A DNA stretch of 22,545 nt from a virus, in the IMG/VR virus record IMGVR_UViG_3300022413_000218, positions 1-22,545 of that record; one strand, written 5' to 3'. How positions within the stretch are numbered: the first letter of the stretch is position 1; each line of letters begins with the position of its first letter. Made by a program: the position numbers and the translations under genes. Under the pieces are notes generated by a model. The model was given only the letters and a program-made list of their open reading frames with translations. It made no database searches and was not told where the DNA came from. This document shows positions 1 through 18,831 of the stretch, one piece after another.

Positions 1-119
1 GCAGTGGGGGTTGTTTCTCCACCTATTCGGTCTATGATATCATTTTGTTTCTTGGTGGTGGACTTTCCGCCCTCTTCCTGGGTTGCAGGTGGGCTTGCAT
101 CCTTGGTTATGGTTGTCAT
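1..119 (-). CDS. Unknown protein, N-terminal part only (runs off the left edge)
   Basis: An ATG at 119 opens a frame that stays open to base 1, giving 39 visible residues beginning MTTITKDASPPATQEEGGKS. Its ATGA start/stop overlap with the end of the 1001-aa phosphoesterase gene is the same junction used throughout this genome, which supports the start. The visible part is polar and rich in Thr, Lys, Glu and Gly, so it looks like a flexible N-terminus. Its position after two appendage genes suggests another virion or tail protein, but no domain can be seen. The remainder lies outside the window. Confidence 0.6.
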   Translation of the reverse strand, partial: MTTITKDASPPATQEEGGKSTTKKQNDIIDRIGGETTPT

Positions 120-3100
120 GTTATGGTTACACTCCCTATTTGAGTAAGGCTAGGCGTGGGGATAGCGTCCACACCATCTGTTAATGTAAATTGCTGGTTA
201 GCATCAGCTCCTACCGTACATCGTGCGTCTGGACTGTCTATTGTGACTATAACCGTTCTTGATCCGTTGGTTCCTGTCCTGTTTACAATCGTAAGAGGCA
301 CCAAGAATGGTCCATTGCCTGAGCTGGTCTGCGTGGATGAGGTCAGCGCTGTGTAATCAGTTACCGCTACGGCCGTACCTCCTCCAGGGGATTCCGTATC
401 AAAGTCAATCTTTGCAGGACCTAAGAAATGTCCCCTGTCAAATATGAAATCCTCTGTTCCCACGTCATCAAGTACGGGGTTAAGATCTGCTCGTGATGTG
501 ATGGCTGTGCTTGTAGGAGTATCAAGGTTTGAATATGTTGTGGTGTTGACTACCGTTCCATCAGCCTCGATTCCTTGGTATGTATATGTAATGAAATAAT
601 TAGCAGGATTGTCTGTGAGTACAAGTTTTCCATAGATTTGTTGGTTGAGTCCACCACCTGTACTGGTAGTATCTGTATCAACTGCAAACCAAGGTTTGGG
701 AGTTGCTGGGCCGGTTGTAACTGTAAACTTGCCTGGTGCACAGGAAAAGTCTACTATGTAACCTGTGGCTGCACCTGTCATGTATGAATTGGTCAATGTA
801 CCGTCATCTGCAAAGAATCGGTGTGAATCACCGTGGATCATTACCATTTCTGGCACGTTATTATTTACAGCATAGTTAAAGAATGCACTTCTTTCTGATG
901 TGGCTATTCCCCATCCTTCACTTGTATCCTCTATGGATGTACCGCCAGGATGGATTATCATCTTTGCGCCGTTGGTCTGGGATAATAGCATCTGTTGTTC
1001 TATCCATGCCATTTGATCCCATGTCTGGACTGATGGGGTTCCGTAGCTTGTGCCATCTCCAAAGAACTTGACATCATCTACTGATCTGTATGACATCTGA
1101 TCAGTGACTAGCATTGTAATTCTTCCTATCTCTGCACGCTGAACGTAAGGATCTGTCCATGCTCCCGTTCCAGTGACTGCAAATGCTCCTATGTGTGGCA
1201 TGAGTTCGCTGTATGCCTGCTTGGCTAGAAGATACATTGATTGTCTTACTGAGTTGTCCAGTGGAGCGCCTTCGGTACCTGCATCATACCCAAGATCGTG
1301 ATCATCTAACTGGCTTGCCCACCAACACATCTTTAGTAATCTGACGGTATCGCCTAGTACCATAGTAGAGCGGAATCTTGATCTAAATACGGAGACATCA
1401 GTGATTGGATTAACAGCCGGGTCTACATCCTGATATACCCAGTCTCCACCAAAGTCTATAATGAATGGATCCTCATTGTCAGCTATCTGTGTAAATACTG
1501 GTACCTCTCCCGATGCGGAACCAGTACCTCCGATGAACGTATAATCTACATCATTGACCTGAATCCAGTTGTATGTCCTGGTTGCAGCAGGTGCAGTATT
1601 TGCTGTGTCAGGGGTCTTGAATGCTCCTATGTAACTGGTGTCAGTTGTACTATCTGCCTTGACACCCCAATAATATTGTGTATTTGCCGTAAGCCCTGTA
1701 ACTTCTACCTGTAATATTGGGAGTAACCCTATACCATCAAAGTTCATGCTGGTAGTAGCAGTTGATGCGCTGAGAAAGTCCTCGCTTGCAAGTCCGCTGT
1801 CAACGGATACGACTATCTGCGCGTCTGTCTCAACGTCTCCAAGTTCTGCAGTAAATCTCGCTGATGTGTCTGCCGGGTGGTCTACGTGTCCCCAGTTAAC
1901 TGCGGTTGGCAAGTCTGCTGCAGCTGGCTGGTCTTCAAACAGCATTGCATATGATACGGTTCGAGCAGTAGGTGAGCCTGTTGGAACACATCTCATTGAT
2001 AGTGTCTCGCCAGCCTCTACATCAAGTGTCAGCCCTGAAAGACTGGCAGTCGTGCCGGTTGTAGTAATTGCGATGTCAGTTGAGCCTTGTGCTACTCCAT
2101 CTAACATAAGGGTAAATGTGTAAGTTCCAGTGGGTGTTCCACTGAGTAGTATATTGATATCTGTAATTCGTTTGGCTGATGCAAATCGTAACACCCTGTT
2201 GGCTTCTGTGGAGTTCCAAAGGCCACCTGTCATGTTTATGAAATTATATTCTGTGGCACTTGTTGACAATGTATCGTCACCGCCTCCAAAGAAATGTCCC
2301 TGTCCAGATGTGCCAGTGTCCAAGGTATAGACCATGTTATCCCTTCCTGTTACAGGGGTTGATGTAGGAATACATTCCCTTATGAGGGTATCACCTGCGA
2401 CTATGGACATGGTAGATGACCCTGCATTTGCTGTCATATTGGATTCGTCAAGTGTAATGGTTACTTTTTCAGGCGTGCCATCTGGGTTCTTTACCATTGA
2501 ATGTGCAAAGCTGTTTCCAGCACCTGGTGGTGAGTTATCCTGCTGTCTATGTATGCGGAAATTGCCTAGTGTTGCACTGTTTGAGACTACTGTCTGTTCG
2601 GTTGTAGTCGTACCCCAGCCACCCTTGCCACCTAATTCAGGGGAAAGATACACCGTAACTGTATTATCAACAGCCCCAGGGGTAAAGCTTGTGTGGGTGT
2701 CTTCAGTTGATACGGCTGGCTTCCAATTAAGACAGTGTTCAAACTTTCCTATTGATGCCGGAGCGGTACCAGTGGATGCGGTGAGTCCCATCTGTACACG
2801 GTCGTCCTGGTTTACCCACATGTTACGTCTTGAGAGTTTGGATGTTTCACCGTTCTCAATTCTTATTTGTATGTTCTCGCCTGTAGTGAGGTTCATCAGT
2901 CTGATTTCCCAATATGCGCCTGCACTTCCTGGATCAGTATCTATGAAACATTCAAGGTCTCCCATCCAACCATCAGTGGCAGCATACCAATCAACCTTGT
3001 CTTTCTGGTTCTGTGTTACGTAATCGTTGTTTCCCATTGGAGGGATAAACCAAGTGCCTGATGTAGTAGGAACATTAGTTACTGAAATGCCACCTTTTGG

Positions 3101-3121
3101 GTAGGCTGCTGTGCGTACCAT
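116..3121 (-). CDS. Virion appendage protein with PhoD-like metallophosphoesterase domain (1001 aa)
   Basis: A modular protein. Residues 1-400 are Thr/Gly/Ser-rich and beta-like, as in phage appendage proteins, with two related jelly-roll-like stretches (about 215-270 and 310-395). Residues 405-505 resemble the Fn3-like lead-in domain of PhoD proteins, ending in GLTANTQYYWGVKAD. Residues 555-800 carry the PhoD phosphodiesterase/alkaline phosphatase D signature in order: GDWVYQD (559-565), DDHD (606-609), TDQMSYRS (673-680), an EGWGIATSER segment (735-744) and GDSH (764-767). These Asp/His residues match the family's metal ligands. Residues 870-1001 form another beta-rich tail. No signal peptide is present, so it is probably a virion component rather than a secreted enzyme. 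The gene follows the fibre gene with a one-base TAATG overlap. Likely role: hydrolysing phosphate esters at the host surface during entry, or binding only if inactive. The fold call is strong; the substrate is unknown. Confidence 0.85.
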   Translation of the reverse strand: MVRTAAYPKGGISVTNVPTTSGTWFIPPMGNNDYVTQNQKDKVDWYAATDGWMGDLECFIDTDPGSAGAYWEIRLMNLTTGENIQIRIENGETSKLSRRNMWVNQDDRVQMGLTASTGTAPASIGKFEHCLNWKPAVSTEDTHTSFTPGAVDNTVTVYLSPELGGKGGWGTTTTEQTVVSNSATLGNFRIHRQQDNSPPGAGNSFAHSMVKNPDGTPEKVTITLDESNMTANAGSSTMSIVAGDTLIRECIPTSTPVTGRDNMVYTLDTGTSGQGHFFGGGDDTLSTSATEYNFINMTGGLWNSTEANRVLRFASAKRITDINILLSGTPTGTYTFTLMLDGVAQGSTDIAITTTGTTASLSGLTLDVEAGETLSMRCVPTGSPTARTVSYAMLFEDQPAAADLPTAVNWGHVDHPADTSARFTAELGDVETDAQIVVSVDSGLASEDFLSASTATTSMNFDGIGLLPILQVEVTGLTANTQYYWGVKADSTTDTSYIGAFKTPDTANTAPAATRTYNWIQVNDVDYTFIGGTGSASGEVPVFTQIADNEDPFIIDFGGDWVYQDVDPAVNPITDVSVFRSRFRSTMVLGDTVRLLKMCWWASQLDDHDLGYDAGTEGAPLDNSVRQSMYLLAKQAYSELMPHIGAFAVTGTGAWTDPYVQRAEIGRITMLVTDQMSYRSVDDVKFFGDGTSYGTPSVQTWDQMAWIEQQMLLSQTNGAKMIIHPGGTSIEDTSEGWGIATSERSAFFNYAVNNNVPEMVMIHGDSHRFFADDGTLTNSYMTGAATGYIVDFSCAPGKFTVTTGPATPKPWFAVDTDTTSTGGGLNQQIYGKLVLTDNPANYFITYTYQGIEADGTVVNTTTYSNLDTPTSTAITSRADLNPVLDDVGTEDFIFDRGHFLGPAKIDFDTESPGGGTAVAVTDYTALTSSTQTSSGNGPFLVPLTIVNRTGTNGSRTVIVTIDSPDARCTVGADANQQFTLTDGVDAIPTPSLTQIGSVTIT

Positions 3122-5277
3122 TATGTCGTACGCTCCAGATACAATACTAGTTTAAGATCAGTAGATAATGATGCTGAATCAATAACAATCATGACATGTT
3201 GTCCTTTTGTGACAGTGGTGGTACTCCATCCAGATATGGACAGTTGCTCCACTCTTTGGGATGAGGTTAATGTTGGTTTTTGTGCTCCAGTGATGGTATC
3301 TGCTACGGTTGGAGGGTAATTGCCAGGGTCTTCAACCCAGATATCAAATACTGCGCTGCCTACCTCATTAGGAGAAGTAATTTCATACCCTATTATGGTC
3401 GCATCGTATGGCATACGGATGTCTCCTATGGTGGCTGCAATTATCTCAGATGTACCTGCGTTCACATGTGCTGTGATCTGACCGTCTATCTGTGTAGGAA
3501 TATTCTTCCAAGTAGTACCGTCATCGTCCGTATATTGTGGTCGTCCGTCTGGGCCTTCGCGTGCTTGCAATGTACCAGATGAATCAATATAATCTATATT
3601 GCCTGCTGTCTGACCTGTTGCGGGTTTAAATGACATCGTGGCATCTGTGAGCTGAGAGCCACCAAGCCTGTATATTCTCCCACCGTGACCGATGGCAGTA
3701 TGTACTTGCCCATGATTTGGAAAAGTAGCATCTTTTTGCATTATAGTCAGTTTGCTTATCTCTCTTTGATACCCCTGCTTGCCTGTGTTTCCTACACCTG
3801 CGTAAATTGTGTGACCTCCTTCGTCATCATCTACAAAGATGACATCGCCACTCTGATTGTTAACATAAACATTCTCTATCTCAAGACCGTTGAGGTTTGC
3901 GCCTGAACTTATCTTTAATACTCTCTGATTAGCCCCTTCCATGGATACCGAAAGGTTATGGATCTTGACTGCCCCTAAAGCCCCTTGTAGCATGGTAGCG
4001 TTAGGATAGTTGCTATTATCAGCCTCATAGTGAAGCAGATCGATTGATATATTTCTTGCACCACCAGTTCCGCTCATTATAGCTGTGCCACCACATTTCT
4101 CAAGGTTCAATCCTCCGGTAAATGTCATAAACTTGCAGCCACCACGCATAATAATCTGATTAGTAGAACCGCCTGCATTTGAGGTTGCGACGCCCATAAA
4201 GTTATGGAAATTGTGCTGTTGCCCTGCCTCCAGTGTCATTGCACAGTATGTATAATCATCACACCTGACATCATTGAATCGTCCGTTTTGCTGCAATGTA
4301 TATGACATGGCCTTGGATGTGGCCAGATCATCGCAGTCGAATGTCATTTGATCTATAAAGTATCTTCCCAGTCCGTGTATTGTGGTGCCATTGGTTCCCA
4401 CTATGAGGGATACGGTTTCAGTTCCAGGTACACCCGCACCCAGACTGTATGATTTGGAATCAATGGTTGAAAGGCTTGTCACTGCTTCCGTCCATGTTTC
4501 AGTAAAGTCAAAAGTGCTATGTGACTTTATTGTGCTTCTATTGCCTACAAGGTGCTGTTCTGTAAAATGTAATAATGGAGCACCAATCAATATCGTACCT
4601 AATGGTATGAACACACCTCGTACTGTAGTATCATCTGCTGCTGCCTGCATTGCTGCTTGCAAGCCCGCTCGCTGGTCACTGGAATCATTCATGACCACGC
4701 TATATGGTGCATCACGTGGATCGATGAATCCTGGTGGGGCAGTATTACCTGCGGAAGATGATATTGTAATATCGTCAGAATTTTCAACCACTGTGATGTT
4801 GCTACCACCAATGATCTTTCTAGCTTCCAATGTCTGTGCTGTGATCTGCTTAAGAACGGATGAACCAGACGCGCCTAAATTAGAAATAGTGTCTATTTTA
4901 TTGTCAAGTGTTGATTGTAATGCTGTAACATCTGAAATAACATGCGTATGTACAGAAGATGCCTTTCCGTCTAAAAGTGTCTGTAAGTTTGTAATGTCAT
5001 CTATAATGTGAGTATGTGCTGATGCTGCCTTTCCGTCCAGTGTTGTTTGTAGGCTTGTAATGTCTCCTATGATATGCGTATGTACTGATAATGCTTTTGC
5101 ATCAAGGTCGGTTTGAACGTCTGATGCGCCTGTGGTCTCAATGGATGAGGCTTGTATGAATTCAGTAGCATGTGTACCCTTTGCGACCTGAACAAGTTGG
5201 ACTATATCAGGAGCACCATATTTTGTAGAGTCTCCTGCGGTTGCGTCTGTTGCCTCCTTAACAGTAAGATTAACCAT
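3121..5277 (-). CDS. Tail fibre / receptor-binding protein with HTH repeats and beta-helix (718 aa)
   Basis: Three or more 22-residue repeats (about residues 57-126) have the pattern LDgKa..(V/A)HTH(I/V)I.D(I/V)T.LQ, with HTH at 66-68, 88-90 and 110-112; such repeats are common in phage fibres. Residues 185-260 resemble the start of a pectate-lyase-like right-handed beta-helix (a run of Ala and Asp ahead of GVFIPLGTILIGAPL, then LVGNRSTI). Asn/Gly-rich beta strands continue to about 500. The last 100 residues resemble a C-terminal domain seen at the ends of many phage tail proteins: DIWVEDPGNYPPTVADTITG, then a SGWSTTTVTKG segment and a hydrophobic VDSAS strand. Its own candidate promoter element lies at 5314-5326. 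Likely role: host recognition. Specificity cannot be told from sequence. Confidence 0.82.
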   Translation of the reverse strand: MVNLTVKEATDATAGDSTKYGAPDIVQLVQVAKGTHATEFIQASSIETTGASDVQTDLDAKALSVHTHIIGDITSLQTTLDGKAASAHTHIIDDITNLQTLLDGKASSVHTHVISDVTALQSTLDNKIDTISNLGASGSSVLKQITAQTLEARKIIGGSNITVVENSDDITISSSAGNTAPPGFIDPRDAPYSVVMNDSSDQRAGLQAAMQAAADDTTVRGVFIPLGTILIGAPLLHFTEQHLVGNRSTIKSHSTFDFTETWTEAVTSLSTIDSKSYSLGAGVPGTETVSLIVGTNGTTIHGLGRYFIDQMTFDCDDLATSKAMSYTLQQNGRFNDVRCDDYTYCAMTLEAGQQHNFHNFMGVATSNAGGSTNQIIMRGGCKFMTFTGGLNLEKCGGTAIMSGTGGARNISIDLLHYEADNSNYPNATMLQGALGAVKIHNLSVSMEGANQRVLKISSGANLNGLEIENVYVNNQSGDVIFVDDDEGGHTIYAGVGNTGKQGYQREISKLTIMQKDATFPNHGQVHTAIGHGGRIYRLGGSQLTDATMSFKPATGQTAGNIDYIDSSGTLQAREGPDGRPQYTDDDGTTWKNIPTQIDGQITAHVNAGTSEIIAATIGDIRMPYDATIIGYEITSPNEVGSAVFDIWVEDPGNYPPTVADTITGAQKPTLTSSQRVEQLSISGWSTTTVTKGQHVMIVIDSASLSTDLKLVLYLERTT
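4900..5109 (-). repeat. 66-base tandem repeats encoding HTH fibre motifs
   Basis: Slightly more than three imperfect 66-base units encode the 22-residue motif around His-Thr-His in the fibre's N-terminal half. The bases have diverged (for example ATGCGTATGTACTG against GTGAGTATGTGCTG on the plus strand), but the peptide pattern is well kept. This points to an old duplication kept by selection on structure, probably a trimeric stalk with metal-binding histidines. Confidence 0.85.
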
Positions 5278-5957: not shown

Positions 5958-7106
5958 CTAACTCGATATTGTTGGTGGGTTTGCTACAGTCGTTGGTGTT
6001 CCGAGAATTGAAGCTGCTGCCTCTAGGGTTGCTGGTTCAGTATCTGCTGTGTCACCTGATGCAGTCAATGTTAGATCACTCTTGAAGCCGTATCTGGATG
6101 GGTTCATTAGAATACATTGGAAGTAGTCTCTTGCTATGCCCATGTCAGTGTTGTTCTCTGGTCTTCTCCATTGCTCTGTTTGCATTGGACCAATACCTTT
6201 GAGAAGTGCTTGGCTGTCTACAAAGTAGACGGTTCCGAGTGGTACCATTGGGTCTACGTATGCGTTCAAACCTGGGATTCCTCTAACTTGAGTAATACCA
6301 TCGTTCACAACATCTAATCCTGGTTGGTATCCTTTTACAAAGTCATTGCCTTCGTATCTTTGATAATCAACTGGGTTAACTGCCCATGAATCGATTCTGG
6401 ATAAGTTGGTCTTCCAGTGTGCTTGAATTGCTTCCATGATGTCTTTCTTTGGGTTGTAATCACTTACTCCACTTGTCTTTGCATCCCAATCGTTTGCGAG
6501 TACGTCGGTATCTGTTAGGCCTGTTAGGGCAAACAATACCATGACGTTTCTTGCTTCTGCAAGGGCTCTACGTGATTCTTCCATGTCGACATTCATTGGA
6601 TTGATTACTCCTCTGATAATGTCTTCAGTTGGATGGAATATTGGGGTTGCGTTGTACGTTAGATTAAAGTTGTCTTCTCCATACTTTACGTTGGTAAAGT
6701 CAACTTCTTGAAGTGGTTTGACTCCTAGTTGTGCCTTGTATGCATCCCTTTCAGGAATTCTTGCATTAAGACTTGGAACTGGGATATCTCGACCCATTTG
6801 CTGCAAAAAGTTAATCTCTGCTGGCTTGCCTACAAGTTCTCTTAGTAATGGGAATGCATTGATGTGATCAATGGAGTTATCCCCGATTGCTGCATGGTAA
6901 CCATTTTTTTTGATTGCCATAAGGGCTTGTTTGGCTTCTCTGCCATAGCTGATTTTGTGACTTTTTGTTGCTGCATCATAGCGTATGTGTCCGAGCTTTT
7001 TATGAGATGCACCAAAAGATTTTGACACGTCTTGTTGCTCTGCACCAATACCTGCATAGACTGCATGATTGTAGGGGTGATAAGTGTATATTTTATTGTC
7101 AGACAT
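5958..7106 (-). CDS. Probable major capsid protein (382 aa)
   Basis: The assignment rests on context and composition. It follows the protease/scaffold and decoration genes, has the usual size for an HK97-fold capsid protein, and has no Cys clusters or membrane segment. Features include a basic N-terminal arm beginning MSDNKIYTYHPYN, a region at about 140-260 with an EDIIRGVINPMNVDMEESRR helix followed by a hydrophobic helix, and a Thr/Ala/Pro-rich tail that may be disordered. I chose the ATG at 7106 because the decoration gene stops at 7109. An upstream in-frame ATG at 7136 would add ten residues and overlap that gene. No sequence motif proves the fold. Confidence 0.72.
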   Translation of the reverse strand: MSDNKIYTYHPYNHAVYAGIGAEQQDVSKSFGASHKKLGHIRYDAATKSHKISYGREAKQALMAIKKNGYHAAIGDNSIDHINAFPLLRELVGKPAEINFLQQMGRDIPVPSLNARIPERDAYKAQLGVKPLQEVDFTNVKYGEDNFNLTYNATPIFHPTEDIIRGVINPMNVDMEESRRALAEARNVMVLFALTGLTDTDVLANDWDAKTSGVSDYNPKKDIMEAIQAHWKTNLSRIDSWAVNPVDYQRYEGNDFVKGYQPGLDVVNDGITQVRGIPGLNAYVDPMVPLGTVYFVDSQALLKGIGPMQTEQWRRPENNTDMGIARDYFQCILMNPSRYGFKSDLTLTASGDTADTEPATLEAAASILGTPTTVANPPTISS

Positions 7107-7108
7107 TT

Positions 7109-7543
7109 CTAGACTGCTCCTAACAGAATTATACAATCTGTTTCAGTGTCTGCAGCCGGAGTTGCTTTAGTCTCACCTGCGTGCTTAATGTATCTGCCAA
7201 CGACATATCCTGCAGCGAGATCAGCTGCTGTACCTACTATAACTTCAGCACTGCCTGTTTCTACTGCGACATATCCGCCTGGTTGGATTGCTCCACCTGC
7301 ATCTACAACAACATAACTACCTGGACCTGCGACTTGACAATCAGTAACCACACCTGCTGAGAATACTCTAGTTTCTAATGCAACGAATACACCGGTTGCT
7401 GTGGTGGTGTCGGTTGCTAAGGCTACTAGGTTTCCTGCGGAAAGTGTGTAAAAGTTTCCTTTTGTGATTGTACCAGTTGCGAAGGGCAAAGTTTGTACGT
7501 TATGTTTGCCGGGTTGGGTAAGATCTCCTTTTGTGAATGTCAA
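7109..7543 (-). CDS. Probable head decoration protein, DUF2190-like (144 aa)
   Basis: A small beta-rich protein high in Gly, Ala, Thr and Val. It has TGTITKGNFYTLSAGNLVAL near residue 23 and turns such as AGVVTDCQVAGPGSYVVVDA. This resembles capsid decoration or stabilisation proteins of the DUF2190 type, which are normally encoded between the scaffold/protease and the major capsid protein, exactly as here. It starts with TTG, overlapping the protease stop as TTGA, and stops three bases before the capsid ATG. It would sit on the outside of the mature head. The family call is from pattern and position. Confidence 0.68.
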   Translation of the reverse strand: MTFTKGDLTQPGKHNVQTLPFATGTITKGNFYTLSAGNLVALATDTTTATGVFVALETRVFSAGVVTDCQVAGPGSYVVVDAGGAIQPGGYVAVETGSAEVIVGTAADLAAGYVVGRYIKHAGETKATPAADTETDCIILLGAV

Positions 7544-8897: not shown

Positions 8898-9112
8898 ATT
8901 TTCACCGTGTTTAGTTTGATATTCATCTTTAGCCCGAGTTCCAACAGTTTGGCCTCTATGTGATGGATTTGTTTAGCTTGTGAGGATAATGCAAATGGTT
9001 CGTCTGATGTAACTAATTTAGTGAGGACAGCAGCGTATTGTTCAGCAAGTATCTTACTTTGGTCTGTTGGTTGAATTGGCTTTACTTGTTGGGTCTTGCT
9101 TTGACTGTCCAC
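8894..9112 (-). CDS. Small helical protein overlapping the portal gene (72 aa)
   Basis: A GTG at 9112 lies inside the end of the portal gene and gives a 59-base overlap in another frame. The stop overlaps the next ATG. The sequence begins MDSQSKTQQVKPIQPTDQSK, continues with a long helix (ILAEQYAAVLTKLV, then HHIEAKLLELGLKMNIKLN) and has no Cys. It is not recognised. Gene order suggests a small head protein. The junction with the next gene supports its being real. Confidence 0.62.
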   Translation of the reverse strand: MDSQSKTQQVKPIQPTDQSKILAEQYAAVLTKLVTSDEPFALSSQAKQIHHIEAKLLELGLKMNIKLNTVKI

Positions 9113-10772
9113 TAGAGGATCCTTTTCTCTTCATCTTAATATCTTTTCCCTCAGAGTCCATAAACCCGAATCCTTGCTTGTTAGGGTCTGGTCTGTCCAT
9201 ATCTGGATCAACCATTGTCTCAAAGTTATCAATGCCTAACAACTCACCAATTGCCTTTGTTGTGAGAGGTACCTGTTCGTTTAGCTTGGCTACTGCTTCC
9301 ACTGAATCATCAAATGCCTCCAGTTTCAATGGCTTGAATTCAGCCTCTACCTTGTATAGTTTAAACTCTTCAGAGTCCGTTTTGTATACTGCCTTAAAGT
9401 TGGGCATGTACCATTGCTTACCTATTTGCTGACCGTCATCTTTTTGCTGGTTCTTGATTACCCCGTCCATAAAGAACCTGACCTTTTGCACTAATGTGCT
9501 GCGGTTACTGTCTTGTTCCTGTGCAAACAATGCTTGAGGCATTCCTGTTTGTGCTATGTTATGTCTAATCAAAAAGTCTGCCAACTCTACCAATTCTTTT
9601 ATCTTTGGTGAGAATTCCATTTGATCAAGTCGTGTCTTGTCAGGGGATATCATGAGGTTGTTTAACCTGCCTACCTTTGCCACTGCGTTAATGTTGTTTA
9701 GTTCTGCCTGCTTTTCTGCTGGGGTTGTGCCTTCTGGCTCTATGAACAAAAAGCCCATTCCAGCCCACACGTGTTTTGATATGGTTGGGAAATCAACTTC
9801 AATCATTTGTCGTAGTGACCTTGATGCACCTATCATTGATTGCATCTCTGAGAATCCATAATGTAATGCGTTATACACTGGGTTGTTGGAGCCGTGTTCC
9901 ATGTAGATCATTTGCTGTGGGACTACCTGTTCACCTGTAAATCTAATCTGCACTGACTTTAGCTTCCATGATTCCTGATCAATTTCAACCCAGCCCATGT
10001 CCCTTGTTGCTACAACTTTGAGAATGTTTGGTATGCCAGGGTATGATGTACCGTCAGGCAATACAAGTTTCTTTGTGAACTCTTTGATTATCATGGATCT
10101 GCCATAGACAGATGCATTCTTTGACAATGCTTGAAATTTTGTGTTAACGTCAGTATCTAAAAATGGATCAAGGGCATCATCAGGATCACCTAATGCTTGG
10201 TCTATCATGATTAGTTTGTCAATGATGTATTGACCCTTCTCTAGCAGTTCCTTTTGTGCATCCTCATCTCCTGCTTCGTTGGGGTTTCTTAGTTTTAATA
10301 CGGGAGTTATGCCTTGGCCAAACTTTAGCTCTTCCTTTCTGTCAATGATTCTGCCACCCATTGAATTGGCATAGATGTCTTGTAGCACGATATAATCCAG
10401 GTCTTGATAGGGATTCATGAAGAACTTTGGGAAGAATACCTTCTTCTTTGATCTTGCCTTGTATGATTTTATTTGATTAGCTGATAATGGTTTGGGGTCT
10501 GCACCGTGTGAGTATGGCACCACATTATAATTTGGAACATGTGTTCTGATTTGCTCTTCTGTAAAATCACTGTACATACCAGTGCTATAATCAGTCATCT
10601 TCTCGTCATCATACTGCATTACACCTACTGCATGAAATGGTGCCTGCTTTTTTGTGGGTGGTTCTTTACGTTCAGGTGATAATGGATAAGTAGATTTAGG
10701 CTGAGGTAATCTTGTCTTAATGGAACTATCTGCTTTTTTCTTAATTGATACACGTTTCTTTTTTGATGCCAA
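9054..10772 (-). CDS. Portal protein (572 aa)
   Basis: Placed directly downstream of the terminase and of typical portal size. The N-terminus is very basic (KKKRVSIKKKADSS) and probably disordered. The body has portal-like features: a helical stem region with MSPDKTRLDQMEF-like text, then a helix with NIAQTGMPQALFAQEQDSNR (about residues 405-425) resembling the conserved portal segment where 'G.P..lf....~snr' precedes a long helix. A C-terminal acidic crown domain ends in a Lys/Ser/Gln tail. It would form the dodecameric DNA channel at one head vertex. The start is TTG at 10772, with GGAG nine bases upstream. No tidy motif defines portals, so the call combines position, length and pattern. 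Confidence 0.82.
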   Translation of the reverse strand: MASKKKRVSIKKKADSSIKTRLPQPKSTYPLSPERKEPPTKKQAPFHAVGVMQYDDEKMTDYSTGMYSDFTEEQIRTHVPNYNVVPYSHGADPKPLSANQIKSYKARSKKKVFFPKFFMNPYQDLDYIVLQDIYANSMGGRIIDRKEELKFGQGITPVLKLRNPNEAGDEDAQKELLEKGQYIIDKLIMIDQALGDPDDALDPFLDTDVNTKFQALSKNASVYGRSMIIKEFTKKLVLPDGTSYPGIPNILKVVATRDMGWVEIDQESWKLKSVQIRFTGEQVVPQQMIYMEHGSNNPVYNALHYGFSEMQSMIGASRSLRQMIEVDFPTISKHVWAGMGFLFIEPEGTTPAEKQAELNNINAVAKVGRLNNLMISPDKTRLDQMEFSPKIKELVELADFLIRHNIAQTGMPQALFAQEQDSNRSTLVQKVRFFMDGVIKNQQKDDGQQIGKQWYMPNFKAVYKTDSEEFKLYKVEAEFKPLKLEAFDDSVEAVAKLNEQVPLTTKAIGELLGIDNFETMVDPDMDRPDPNKQGFGFMDSEGKDIKMKRKGSSSGQSKQDPTSKANSTNRPK

Positions 10773-11108: not shown

Positions 11109-12872
11109 TTAATAATTTCCAAAGGCATTATCAAAGTCTGCCTCTTCCCCAAGGCCACCACCGATTATCTCGCCTCCTTTGCTTCTGCCAAGATCCCATG
11201 CGATGTATGCATAATTACAGGCTTGTAGTGCATCGTCAGGTTCTGAGTCCTTGTGGATATATCTAATGTATGTCTGGCCTGTGCTCTTTAGCTTGGCAGT
11301 TTCTGATTCCAACGCTACAAACTGCTTTACTGCCCATTTTAGATCCTCCTGATTCTTACCTGGCAATATTACCCTGTTTGATTTAAAGTCCCCTTGCACG
11401 TAAGGGTGTGATATTAGATCAATAACTCTGTCAATTGAGAATGTTCTGTCTATTACATATCGTAATTCTTTTCTTTGTTTCTTTGCCTCTTCCCTTGTTG
11501 GCAGTGGCTTTTCAGGTCTTGCATGATATGAGTTTCTTATGCATCGTGTACCATACCGTGTCTGTAATGCTTGGACCTGCCTTGTCCCTCCCCCTGCATC
11601 CACTACTATCTGTGAGGCTTCATATGCATCAATTAGATTAATACAGAAATTCTTTTGTTCTTCCACATCACTGGTTTCCATTCTTTCAGCCCATAACAGT
11701 TTGAATATTGGTGCCTTGTCATCCAGGCATTGCCATATCCATACGATGGTCTTTCCACCGCCTCCCCAGTCTATTCCTATATACACCCTACCTGCTGCAT
11801 GATCTACGTCTGCTGCTTTTGTGAGCCCGACTGTCTTGTCAAAGAGTGCAAGCATCATCTTTGTGGTGATTGGCTTTACATCGCCTTCGACAAACTCGGC
11901 CATGACATTCCGTCTAAACTCTGAGTTGGTATAGTCAGGGTCTTTGAGTTTCCACTCTATTGAGAATTCTGGGGATACTTTATAGAGTTCTATTGCATCC
12001 GCTTCTGTTAATGGTATTCTTGGGTTGTATATTTGTGGGAGCCAATAGCCATGCCTTGAGAAATTCTTTGGTGCTTGAGGTACCCACTTACCATCCATTA
12101 CATCAGATAGATTATCATCATATACTAGCCCATGCTCATCAAAGCATCGTCTTTCCAATTCTCTTCTCCAAGACATGTTTTCATACCCCTTGTAGTCCTC
12201 ACCATGCCTAAACTTCCAAGTCATCTGGTTTGTGGTCTTCCATAGTCTTTCATATTGGGTGTCAACATACCCGCCAATCCCGCCAACCATAAAGTCTCCC
12301 ATAGTGTCAGCCTGTGTCTCTCTGGCGTTTTGAAATCCTTCCCACTCTATGTCATTGCCTTCGTCTACTATCATCTTCTGGTTTGATTTTCCTTGTGCGT
12401 GAATCCATTTGTGCAATGCTGTGATCATGTCTATTGTTGAATTGGTCTTTAGTGTCACTTTGGACATTGAGCCATACTTGGACACGCCTTCAATATACTC
12501 TGATAGTGGATATACTGAGAACACATCTTTCCTGAATTTGTTATCTGAGAATGTCTTTACTGCCTCTAGCTCAAAGTTTACGTATGTCTGATCATAATCA
12601 TGGTTGGTACTTGCACCATATGCCAACTCGGATGCAAACTGTGTTGTCTTACCCCATTGCCTTCCCCATAGATATTGTTTCCAAGGATGCTTGTCTAATA
12701 CCGCTTCCAGTAACATTGGTAAATACTTGAGCCTGTTTGGTACTCCTTTTATCTTTGGTCTGCATGCGTACTCCCACTCTATCCTATCTGTAGGGATGTC
12801 AGGCAGTATGTCATCTACTGACTCTTCAAAGTTATAAATGTCGGAGATCTGGTAATCTCTTTTGGATATCAT
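11109..12872 (-). CDS. terL: Terminase large subunit (587 aa)
   Basis: The DNA-packaging motor with ATPase and nuclease domains. Walker A is GRQWGKTT at residues 70-77 and Walker B is MIVDE at 167-171. The RNase-H-like nuclease domain shows its three acidic positions: GIDWGGGG (D368), IVVDAGGG (D425) and SEPDDALQA (D546/D547). A long insert (about 200-340) joins the domains. The length suits the family. The start codon lies inside the end of the small-subunit gene (41-base overlap), indicating coordinated expression. The protein docks on the portal, cuts concatemeric DNA and pumps it into the prohead. All catalytic signatures are intact, so it is probably functional. Confidence 0.95.
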   Translation of the reverse strand: MISKRDYQISDIYNFEESVDDILPDIPTDRIEWEYACRPKIKGVPNRLKYLPMLLEAVLDKHPWKQYLWGRQWGKTTQFASELAYGASTNHDYDQTYVNFELEAVKTFSDNKFRKDVFSVYPLSEYIEGVSKYGSMSKVTLKTNSTIDMITALHKWIHAQGKSNQKMIVDEGNDIEWEGFQNARETQADTMGDFMVGGIGGYVDTQYERLWKTTNQMTWKFRHGEDYKGYENMSWRRELERRCFDEHGLVYDDNLSDVMDGKWVPQAPKNFSRHGYWLPQIYNPRIPLTEADAIELYKVSPEFSIEWKLKDPDYTNSEFRRNVMAEFVEGDVKPITTKMMLALFDKTVGLTKAADVDHAAGRVYIGIDWGGGGKTIVWIWQCLDDKAPIFKLLWAERMETSDVEEQKNFCINLIDAYEASQIVVDAGGGTRQVQALQTRYGTRCIRNSYHARPEKPLPTREEAKKQRKELRYVIDRTFSIDRVIDLISHPYVQGDFKSNRVILPGKNQEDLKWAVKQFVALESETAKLKSTGQTYIRYIHKDSEPDDALQACNYAYIAWDLGRSKGGEIIGGGLGEEADFDNAFGNY

Positions 12873-17243: not shown

Positions 17244-17518
17244 TATTTCTTACTTTCCTCTAATAGTTTTTCTAAAAGTTGCTGGCGTGTATACCACGAT
17301 ATGCGATGGGGGTTAAGATTTATGATTCTATCAATTTCCGCTTCTACCAGTCTCCTTAGTTTCAGAGATGCTAGGATTTGTTTCTTGAGTTCAACACCTA
17401 CGGACATCTTTTTACAATATACCTTAACCAGATATCCCTCCTTTGGTATTACACCTGCAAATTCATCTACTGTTAATGTTTTATCGTTTAATAAAAAAGG
17501 TGGTTGTGGCATGCTCAT
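17243..17518 (-). CDS. Small helical unknown protein (91 aa)
   Basis: Starts MSMPQPPFLLNDKTLTVDEF with an ATGA overlap on the preceding 438-aa gene. After a strand-rich part come two amphipathic, basic helices (KKQILASLKLRRLVEAEIDR and YTRQQLLEKLLEESKK). Cytosolic and basic with no Cys motif; it could be a small nucleic-acid-binding or regulatory protein. No family assigned. Confidence 0.62.
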   Translation of the reverse strand: MSMPQPPFLLNDKTLTVDEFAGVIPKEGYLVKVYCKKMSVGVELKKQILASLKLRRLVEAEIDRIINLNPHRISWYTRQQLLEKLLEESKK

Positions 17519-18831
17519 TTCTGAGCCTCCAAGTATTCTGCTATCTTCTCGTCTATCATATCCTTATCATAGTTTTGAGGATCAAAGAATCCGATAGGTA
17601 TCAATCTTTCATATTGTGCACAACTGAATTTTGACTGCAAATCCTCAAGATATGCTACGTGACTGTCATTTACAATGTGTCCGTATGGGATTATTCCACA
17701 TACTAGTTCATGCATTCTATGATTGATTTGTGGCACTGCATCTTCTGTAGTCAGGCCTCCTGTGTTCTTGAAGCTTCCTTCATACTCTATGTCAGTTTCA
17801 CACCCCATCTGCTTCTTGAACTTTGCACTATAGTTTTGGCTGTTACAGATTATATCATTTGATTTAGATTCCTCTGTTGCAAAGTCACTGTCATTCCTTG
17901 ATGGCATGGCAGTCTTTACGGTTGCCTTATCTTGGTGTCTTGGCTGGAAATCATCCTCTGTCATTACCATGTCTTGATAGTGTTTTGGTAATACTATATT
18001 TTCATGAATGATTTGAGCTTTGCATTCCTCCACAAGCAAACTTGATTTTGCAAAAGGGCTTCTATCTTTAAGATCGTTTGTTTTACCATCCTCAACTTGT
18101 GGCATTACTATTACTAACTTTCCATTAATAATTTGGATTGCATCCTTTGGTAGTTCAAAGAAGCCTTTGGTTTGAGTTGCTTCTGAATTGCCTATCCCTC
18201 TAAGGGTACAGTAGTTCGCTTCTGTAAGTACATCAATCTGCTTTTGTTGTGAGATAGTTGGGTTTTCTATTAGATATAGATCATCCAATGTGTTTTGTAT
18301 TGCTATTATCTGTCTCTGGTCATCTGTTAGTGCCATTGCTCTTTCTTCATAGCTTTTAGCGTCAGCTTCTAGTTTCTCAGATAATGCATCGGCTTCATCT
18401 TGTGCAGTCCATATTGCAGTATTGGTTTTCCCGACATAAACACATGTTATCTCTGGGGTGTTAAGATTCCACTCAACACTTCCACAATACTGGTGTGAGA
18501 CTGGGAATGGTATTGATGTTAAGACATCTTCTGAATACTTTTGTATGTTTGCAGTTAATTGGGCTTCTGGTGGTTGTACGTATGTACCTTCTGCCTTTTG
18601 TTGTTCTATGTCATCTAAGACCTTTTGTTCTTCTGGGGTTAATCCAGTTTGAGTAACAGAAATCTCAGCGTAGACATTAGGAACGACTGCTAACATCATA
18701 ACCGTAGCAAGAATTGCAACTACTGCCTTTAGGGATATTTTACTATCGCACTGTGAGCAGGTTGTTCTTTTTGCATTGGTAGTGACCTTTGGTTCATGCC
18801 CACAATTGGGACATGTTGGTTTTTTTGTCAA
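17515..18831 (-). CDS. Membrane-anchored protein with N-terminal zinc ribbon (438 aa)
   Basis: Residues 7-28 form a zinc ribbon (CPNC at 7-10, CSQC at 25-28). A hydrophobic segment follows (about 33-52) ending in VYA, which looks like a signal-peptidase site or an anchor. The remaining 380 residues are polar, with helical Glu/Gln-rich parts (about 60-80 and 140-200) and several Cys (for example YCGSVEW, ITCVYV, EECKAQ, IICNSQ) that could form disulfides outside the cell. A cytoplasmic zinc ribbon before a membrane anchor is a common design in archaea. Function unknown; it may be displayed on the host surface during infection. The start is TTG at 18831, after a 38-base gap with a TATA-like box. 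Confidence 0.75.
   Translation of the reverse strand: MTKKPTCPNCGHEPKVTTNAKRTTCSQCDSKISLKAVVAILATVMMLAVVPNVYAEISVTQTGLTPEEQKVLDDIEQQKAEGTYVQPPEAQLTANIQKYSEDVLTSIPFPVSHQYCGSVEWNLNTPEITCVYVGKTNTAIWTAQDEADALSEKLEADAKSYEERAMALTDDQRQIIAIQNTLDDLYLIENPTISQQKQIDVLTEANYCTLRGIGNSEATQTKGFFELPKDAIQIINGKLVIVMPQVEDGKTNDLKDRSPFAKSSLLVEECKAQIIHENIVLPKHYQDMVMTEDDFQPRHQDKATVKTAMPSRNDSDFATEESKSNDIICNSQNYSAKFKKQMGCETDIEYEGSFKNTGGLTTEDAVPQINHRMHELVCGIIPYGHIVNDSHVAYLEDLQSKFSCAQYERLIPIGFFDPQNYDKDMIDEKIAEYLEAQK

Follow-up and report, generated by a model that had tools for sequence, protein, structure and literature searches.

A PhoD-fold domain with an altered iron site in a predicted appendage protein of a virus probably infecting Nitrosopumilaceae

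How a domain of the PhoD phosphoesterase type comes to stand beside a fibre gene in a virus, and whether it cuts its target there or merely binds it, are questions raised by one end of a 22.5-kb virus record, the whole of which (22,545 nucleotides) is referred to here as the window. An earlier note on this DNA had described the 1001-residue product of the open reading frame at 116-3121 as a PhoD-like phosphoesterase built into a viral appendage, encoded directly after a fibre gene and lacking a signal peptide; that the frame, which opens with ATG, lies on the minus strand was left unstated. The motifs on which that description relied are all present and in PhoD order, with GGDWVYQD at residue 558, LDDHD at 605, TDQMSYRS at 673, EGWGIATSER at 735 and IHGDSH at 762, and the gene does directly follow that of the fibre; of the other likely appendage gene that the note placed downstream, the window takes in only 39 codons. 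The layout of the protein and the neighboring genes used below are as follows.

1-119, minus strand: start of the next gene, 39 codons before the window end cuts it off
116-3121, minus strand: multidomain protein with a PhoD-like domain, 1001 aa (open reading frame and Pfam)
119-511, minus strand: C-terminal region, residues 871-1001, with no relative detected and no PHROG match
512-1606, minus strand: PhoD-like metallophosphoesterase domain, residues about 506-870 (PF09423 at 537-777; Foldseek and VIA to 2yeq)
821-829, minus strand: GDSH, with Asp765 and His767 at the positions of Asp436 and His438 of Bacillus subtilis PhoD (alignment)
1283-1306, minus strand: DDHDLGYD, with Asp606 and Asp607 at Asp265 and Asp266, and Tyr612 and Asp613 at Asn271 and Asn272, in an uncertain register (alignment)
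1433-1444, minus strand: GDWVY, with Asp560 and Tyr563 at Asp207 and Tyr210 (alignment)
1520-1522, minus strand: Gly534, at the position of Fe ligand Cys180 (alignment)
1607-1906, minus strand: fibronectin-III-like domain in the PhoD_N position, residues about 406-505 (sub-threshold Pfam PhoD_N and Pur_ac_phosph_N; the 2yeq structure alignment begins at model residue 1)
1922-2254, minus strand: probable beta-sandwich module before the PhoD domain, residues about 290-400 (single-sequence model)
3121-5277, minus strand: fibre, 718 aa, with phage tail repeats (Pfam PTR, E 1.7e-19; tail PHROGs) and a weak pectate-lyase-like match (Pect-lyase_RHGA_epim, 20.2 bits, below cut-off)
5958-7136, minus strand: major capsid protein (phrog_1650, E 1.2e-4; matches in the related contigs L003 and L010)
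9054-10772, minus strand: portal (weak Pfam Phage_portal; related viruses have 30-37% matches in the corresponding position)
11109-12872, minus strand: large terminase, used for placing the virus (phrog_675, E 8.8e-32; relatives)

Pfam family PF09423 scores 35.2 bits on the protein, above its cut-off of 27 (E 1e-8), with PhoD_N and Pur_ac_phosph_N matching just before it, each below its own cut-off. Searched against PHROGs as an isolated domain, the PhoD-like region finds PHROG 13624 (hydrolase; 7.2e-11) and PHROG 24476 (phosphodiesterase; 1e-6); the whole protein has no PHROG match at 0.1, residues 1-150 and 850-1001 have none, and residues 145-405 have none below 0.5. Among viral contigs, neither close relatives of the whole protein nor relatives of residues 1-405 were found. 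A 20-residue internal match (E 1e-4) offers at most a hint of an internal repeat in the N-terminal modules, and the fibre and the PhoD protein share no significant sequence similarity. Modelled from its single sequence, the N-terminal part is mostly unusable (pLDDT 37), with strands at residues 307-397 reaching pLDDT 50-75, and given so poor a model its structure matches were set aside as evidence. No relatives were detected for the N- and C-terminal regions, so that any attachment module there is putative. Judged by hydropathy, the protein has no apparent signal peptide or membrane segment (the highest 19-residue Kyte-Doolittle mean is 1.18, at residue 461), as the earlier note had proposed, and the hydrophobic N-terminal stretch that would correspond to the export signal of PhoD is missing.

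Residues 406-870 were modelled with AlphaFold2 from 15 viral sequences and without templates, yielding a prediction of middling confidence (mean pLDDT 67, pTM 0.76). Its best PDB match by Foldseek is B. subtilis PhoD (2yeq; E 3.2e-21), to which it aligns with VIA-align at a Z of 28.8 over 394 residues (rmsd 3.1), the likeness extending over the whole modelled region including the N-terminal sandwich domain. By sequence, a profile built from relatives recovers 2yeq (3.1e-34); phmmer with the window protein alone against PDB sequences returned no PhoD hit and weak chance matches only. Because the two structure comparisons and the relatives' profile converge on the same protein, the PhoD fold predicted for this domain can be considered secure. 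Purple acid phosphatases come second in the structure ranking (Z 26) and share with the domain both the fold and the architecture of the Tyr-ligated Fe site; unlike them, the window domain has the PhoD-type second-metal motif (DDHD), and they score below PhoD in sequence as well as in structure. Nuclease-type metallophosphatases (Mre11) rank far lower, with Z about 13.

Conservation of the fold is accompanied by a change in the metal site. The metal ligands of B. subtilis PhoD were taken from PMC4223295 and their numbering was checked on the 2yeq sequence, Tyr210 and His438 being placed by way of the Tyr-ligated Fe site of that paper and the GDxxY and GDVH motifs. In the alignment six ligands are kept, four in the Fe site (Asp207, Tyr210, Asp436 and His438) and two in the Ca site (Asp265 and Asp266). 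Fe ligand Cys180, however, is replaced by Gly534, a loss missed in the earlier note, at a column that holds Cys or Asp in all 16 of the other aligned sequences (14 viral, one bacterial and B. subtilis). Relatives keep the metal ligands, whose loss among them the note had named as evidence against its reading, and it is the window protein itself that has lost one. Asn271 and Asn272 read as Tyr612 and Asp613, or as Asp613 and Ala614 if a one-residue viral insertion is honored; the family tolerates Asp in place of Asn272 (PMC4223295), and Asn271 is not clearly kept. Since Cys180 is Gly534, Asn271 is not clearly kept, and Cys180Ala and Asn271Ala each abolished the pNPP activity of B. subtilis PhoD (PMC4223295), enzymatic activity of the window domain appears doubtful. 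Ser535 and Glu539, both near Gly534, are only possible substitute ligands. The earlier proposal of an entry phosphoesterase thus stands as regards a PhoD fold in a large viral protein beside a fibre gene, but not as regards activity. With Gly found in place of a defining ligand, the protein is not assigned to the catalytic PhoD enzyme family; it is described instead as an appendage domain of phage type and PhoD fold, which may function as PhoD does or only bind.

The gene belongs to a structural module. On the minus strand the genes run methyltransferase, small terminase (TerS), large terminase (TerL), tRNA-His, portal, protease/scaffold, small head protein, major capsid protein (MCP), a gene encoding 135 aa, the fibre, the PhoD protein and the cut-off gene, and the order TerS-TerL-portal-protease-MCP-fibre-PhoD, in which the PhoD gene comes after the head genes of a tailed virus, favors an appendage role. 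The fibre, in which HTH-type phage tail repeats are followed by the weak pectate-lyase-like match, is possibly a depolymerase acting with the PhoD protein. Elsewhere in the window, the open reading frame at 17515-18831 begins with a CxxC zinc-ribbon-like segment followed by a hydrophobic, signal-like stretch, so that its start codon may be misplaced.

Placement of the virus relies on its large terminase, which 23 viral contigs match at 57-69% and which in cellular genomes finds a Nitrosopumilus MAG at 68%, a Nitrosopumilales contig at 59% and a MAG labelled Deltaproteobacteria at 49%. The Nitrosopumilus contig carries an integrase-like gene (named by sequence reading), terminase, portal, protease, MCP, fibre and tail genes, with the same head-gene order as the window and the fibre after the MCP. 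Both flanks hold apparent host genes, for instance those of carbamoyl-phosphate synthase and of asparaginyl/aspartyl-tRNA synthetase, named by reading their sequences rather than by family search, so that this element of about 40 kb is interpreted as an integrated provirus. As the nearest cellular terminases include that of this provirus, the window most likely derives from a tailed virus of Nitrosopumilaceae.

None of 250 host-family genomes contains PhoD (0/250, with search controls found), and the window protein has no match in them; the 23 virus records related by TerL likewise contain none (0/23, with the PhoD-bearing record L014 recovered as a positive control), many of these being short fragments and five spanning 33-50 kb. 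The gene therefore appears to be accessory. Among 400 genomes sampled from the whole class (Nitrososphaeria), 19 have PhoD above the cut-off. A tree built from 34 domains places the window protein with 17 phage sequences (support 94/84), apart from the cellular PhoDs of Nitrososphaeria, and on the longest branch of the phage side (2.18), in a comparison whose phage members were picked by similarity to the window protein and in which long branches are poorly placed. A host origin of the gene was rejected on two grounds: the 250 host-family genomes have no PhoD, and the PhoDs of other Nitrososphaeria take a separate position in the tree.

PhoD-domain proteins are already recorded in phages of Streptomyces and Microbacterium and in cyanophages (PHROG 13624, "hydrolase"), some of them fused to tail-fibre modules. 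In a 1257-aa protein of the viral record L036, PhoD occupies residues 380-619 and is followed at 838-1249 by a tail-fibre module; 63 phage records match this PhoD domain. The PhoD genes of records L013 and L047 directly follow tail-fibre-like genes, that of L014 lies two genes after one, and the protein of L018 reaches 1467 aa. In a Dolichospermum phage a PhoD-like gene is the neighbor of one for a capsid fibre. The PhoD-like (PAP-like) gene of Microbacterium phage Rowlf, whose function is termed unknown (PMC12352085), has the major tail protein on one side and the head-to-tail adaptor on the other. No tail gene is annotated beside the PhoD-domain genes of Streptomyces phage Tribute and Anabaena phage Elbi, which counts against an appendage role. 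To place a phosphodiesterase in a phage appendage is therefore no new idea, and the nearest comparisons, L036 and Rowlf, agree with the appendage placement proposed earlier.

Comparison with known systems shows which features are particular to the window protein. The phage "hydrolase/purple acid phosphatase" proteins of PHROG 13624 (from Streptomyces Stanwilliamsviridae, Microbacterium, Anabaena and Dolichospermum phages) share its domain and its tree grouping and are, like it, long multidomain proteins (420-1467 aa) often encoded in or near structural modules; unlike it, the ones in the alignment have Cys or Asp as the Fe ligand, their phages infect bacteria, and identity is only about 25%. 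Compared with B. subtilis PhoD, the window protein is extended at its N terminus by some 400 residues of viral sequence, ends in a unique C terminus and has no apparent export signal. Glycerophosphodiester phosphodiesterases (GDPDs), whose fold is a TIM barrel, offer a further parallel. Those of enterococcal phage tail modules, predicted to attack a surface polymer (PMC10194240), are likewise phosphodiesterase-type domains, but their fold is unrelated and their target is teichoic acid.

Nitrosopumilus has an S-layer. To our knowledge Nitrosopumilus has no teichoic acids, and Gram-positive-type teichoic wall polymers are not expected; its phospho-groups would plausibly be those of phosphohexose lipid head groups and of methylphosphonate esters. 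In the reading favored here, to which we give about an even chance, the protein would be a virion appendage in which beta-rich modules display the PhoD-fold domain with the fibre alongside, and the domain would act on the exterior of the cell while the virus attaches or enters. Working with the fibre at the host envelope, it would engage groups bearing phosphodiesters or phosphonate esters on host surface glycans or lipid head groups, its catalysis being weakened, altered or lost. The step might be cleavage through an altered metal centre or binding alone, with a somewhat better than even chance of binding only or of very weak catalysis.

Other readings differ chiefly in what they make of the altered iron site. 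A pseudoenzyme, in which the fold is retained as a lectin-like receptor-binding domain that recognizes phosphorylated surface glycans without cutting them, is a less likely possibility: the fold and most residues of the phosphate site have been retained despite loss of the Fe ligand, the tree suggests accelerated divergence, and the gene has an appendage context, but most ligands are intact, which is often not so in strict pseudoenzymes. Slightly less likely still is a virion-borne phosphodiesterase of the PhoD type that is fully active, its lost ligand made good by another residue such as Ser535 or Glu539 or by a different metal. Six ligands are kept, and the existence of Cys-ligand and Asp-ligand subfamilies (PMC4223295) indicates that the position tolerates change; Gly, however, offers no ligating side chain, Ala at Cys180 or Asn271 inactivates the B. 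subtilis enzyme, Cys or Asp is otherwise invariant in the column, and the window protein has the longest branch in the phage clade.

Two further readings place the activity elsewhere. As bacterial PhoD enzymes serve phosphate acquisition (PMC4223295), the gene could be an auxiliary metabolic gene whose phosphatase, in infected cells or released from them, frees phosphate from organic sources, much as the earlier note had suggested for phosphate-poor water. The lack of an apparent export signal and the location among structural genes make this unlikely, and the large beta-rich fusion, the altered metal site and a host family with no PhoD to supplement also tell against it. A nuclease acting within the cell or after release against competing genomes (superinfection exclusion) has a precedent in the suggestion made for an MPP-domain protein of Thermobifida phage P1312, a 1096-aa metallophosphatase/phosphodiesterase encoded after a tail gene and without mass-spectrometry coverage in the virion study (PMC4569894 and its Table 1); given a fold that is PhoD/PAP-like, with Mre11-type nucleases far down the ranking, this reading was set aside as highly improbable. 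The missing coverage of the P1312 protein also weighs against the favored reading of a virion protein. Within the favored reading of a surface-acting appendage domain, one specific version draws on N. maritimus being a confirmed phosphonate producer and on the proposal that phosphonoglycoproteins are anti-phage decorations in marine microbes (PMC8931226). The domain would then counter this decoration by binding or removing methylphosphonate esters on Nitrosopumilus surface glycans, with a PhoD fold that was re-tuned when the Fe-ligand side chain was lost, a version that is itself quite improbable.

The papers searched described neither an adsorption enzyme nor a receptor for the tailed viruses that infect ammonia-oxidizing archaea, for which the window protein offers a concrete, expressible candidate domain. 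It also shows that a module of the phage surface-phosphodiesterase type has made its way into a virus whose probable host lineage has no PhoD of its own, and it provides a natural case in which the usual PhoD Fe ligand is lost and the fold kept, so that the question of binding versus cutting is directly testable.

Several features of the related elements may be mentioned. At the two ends of a 50-kb related virus record (G003), near-identical baseplate-like proteins with scattered substitutions (L007:1-3169 and L009:7553-10393) could reflect terminal redundancy, a strain mixture or a duplicated gene. Between portal and protease, another related virus carries a tandem array of six paralogs, each about 115 aa long (L080:4267-6584), possibly a diversifying family of small structural proteins. 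The contig from the MAG labelled Deltaproteobacteria (L012) is probably a binned virus contig, or else points to a wider host range of the virus group. In the Nitrosopumilales contig, TerS and TerL occur without head or tail genes and adjoin JAB/ThiF-like genes (L011:3256-5440); a comparable lone terminase element, NitKor-E1, is known from Nitrosopumilus koreensis (PMC6563490).
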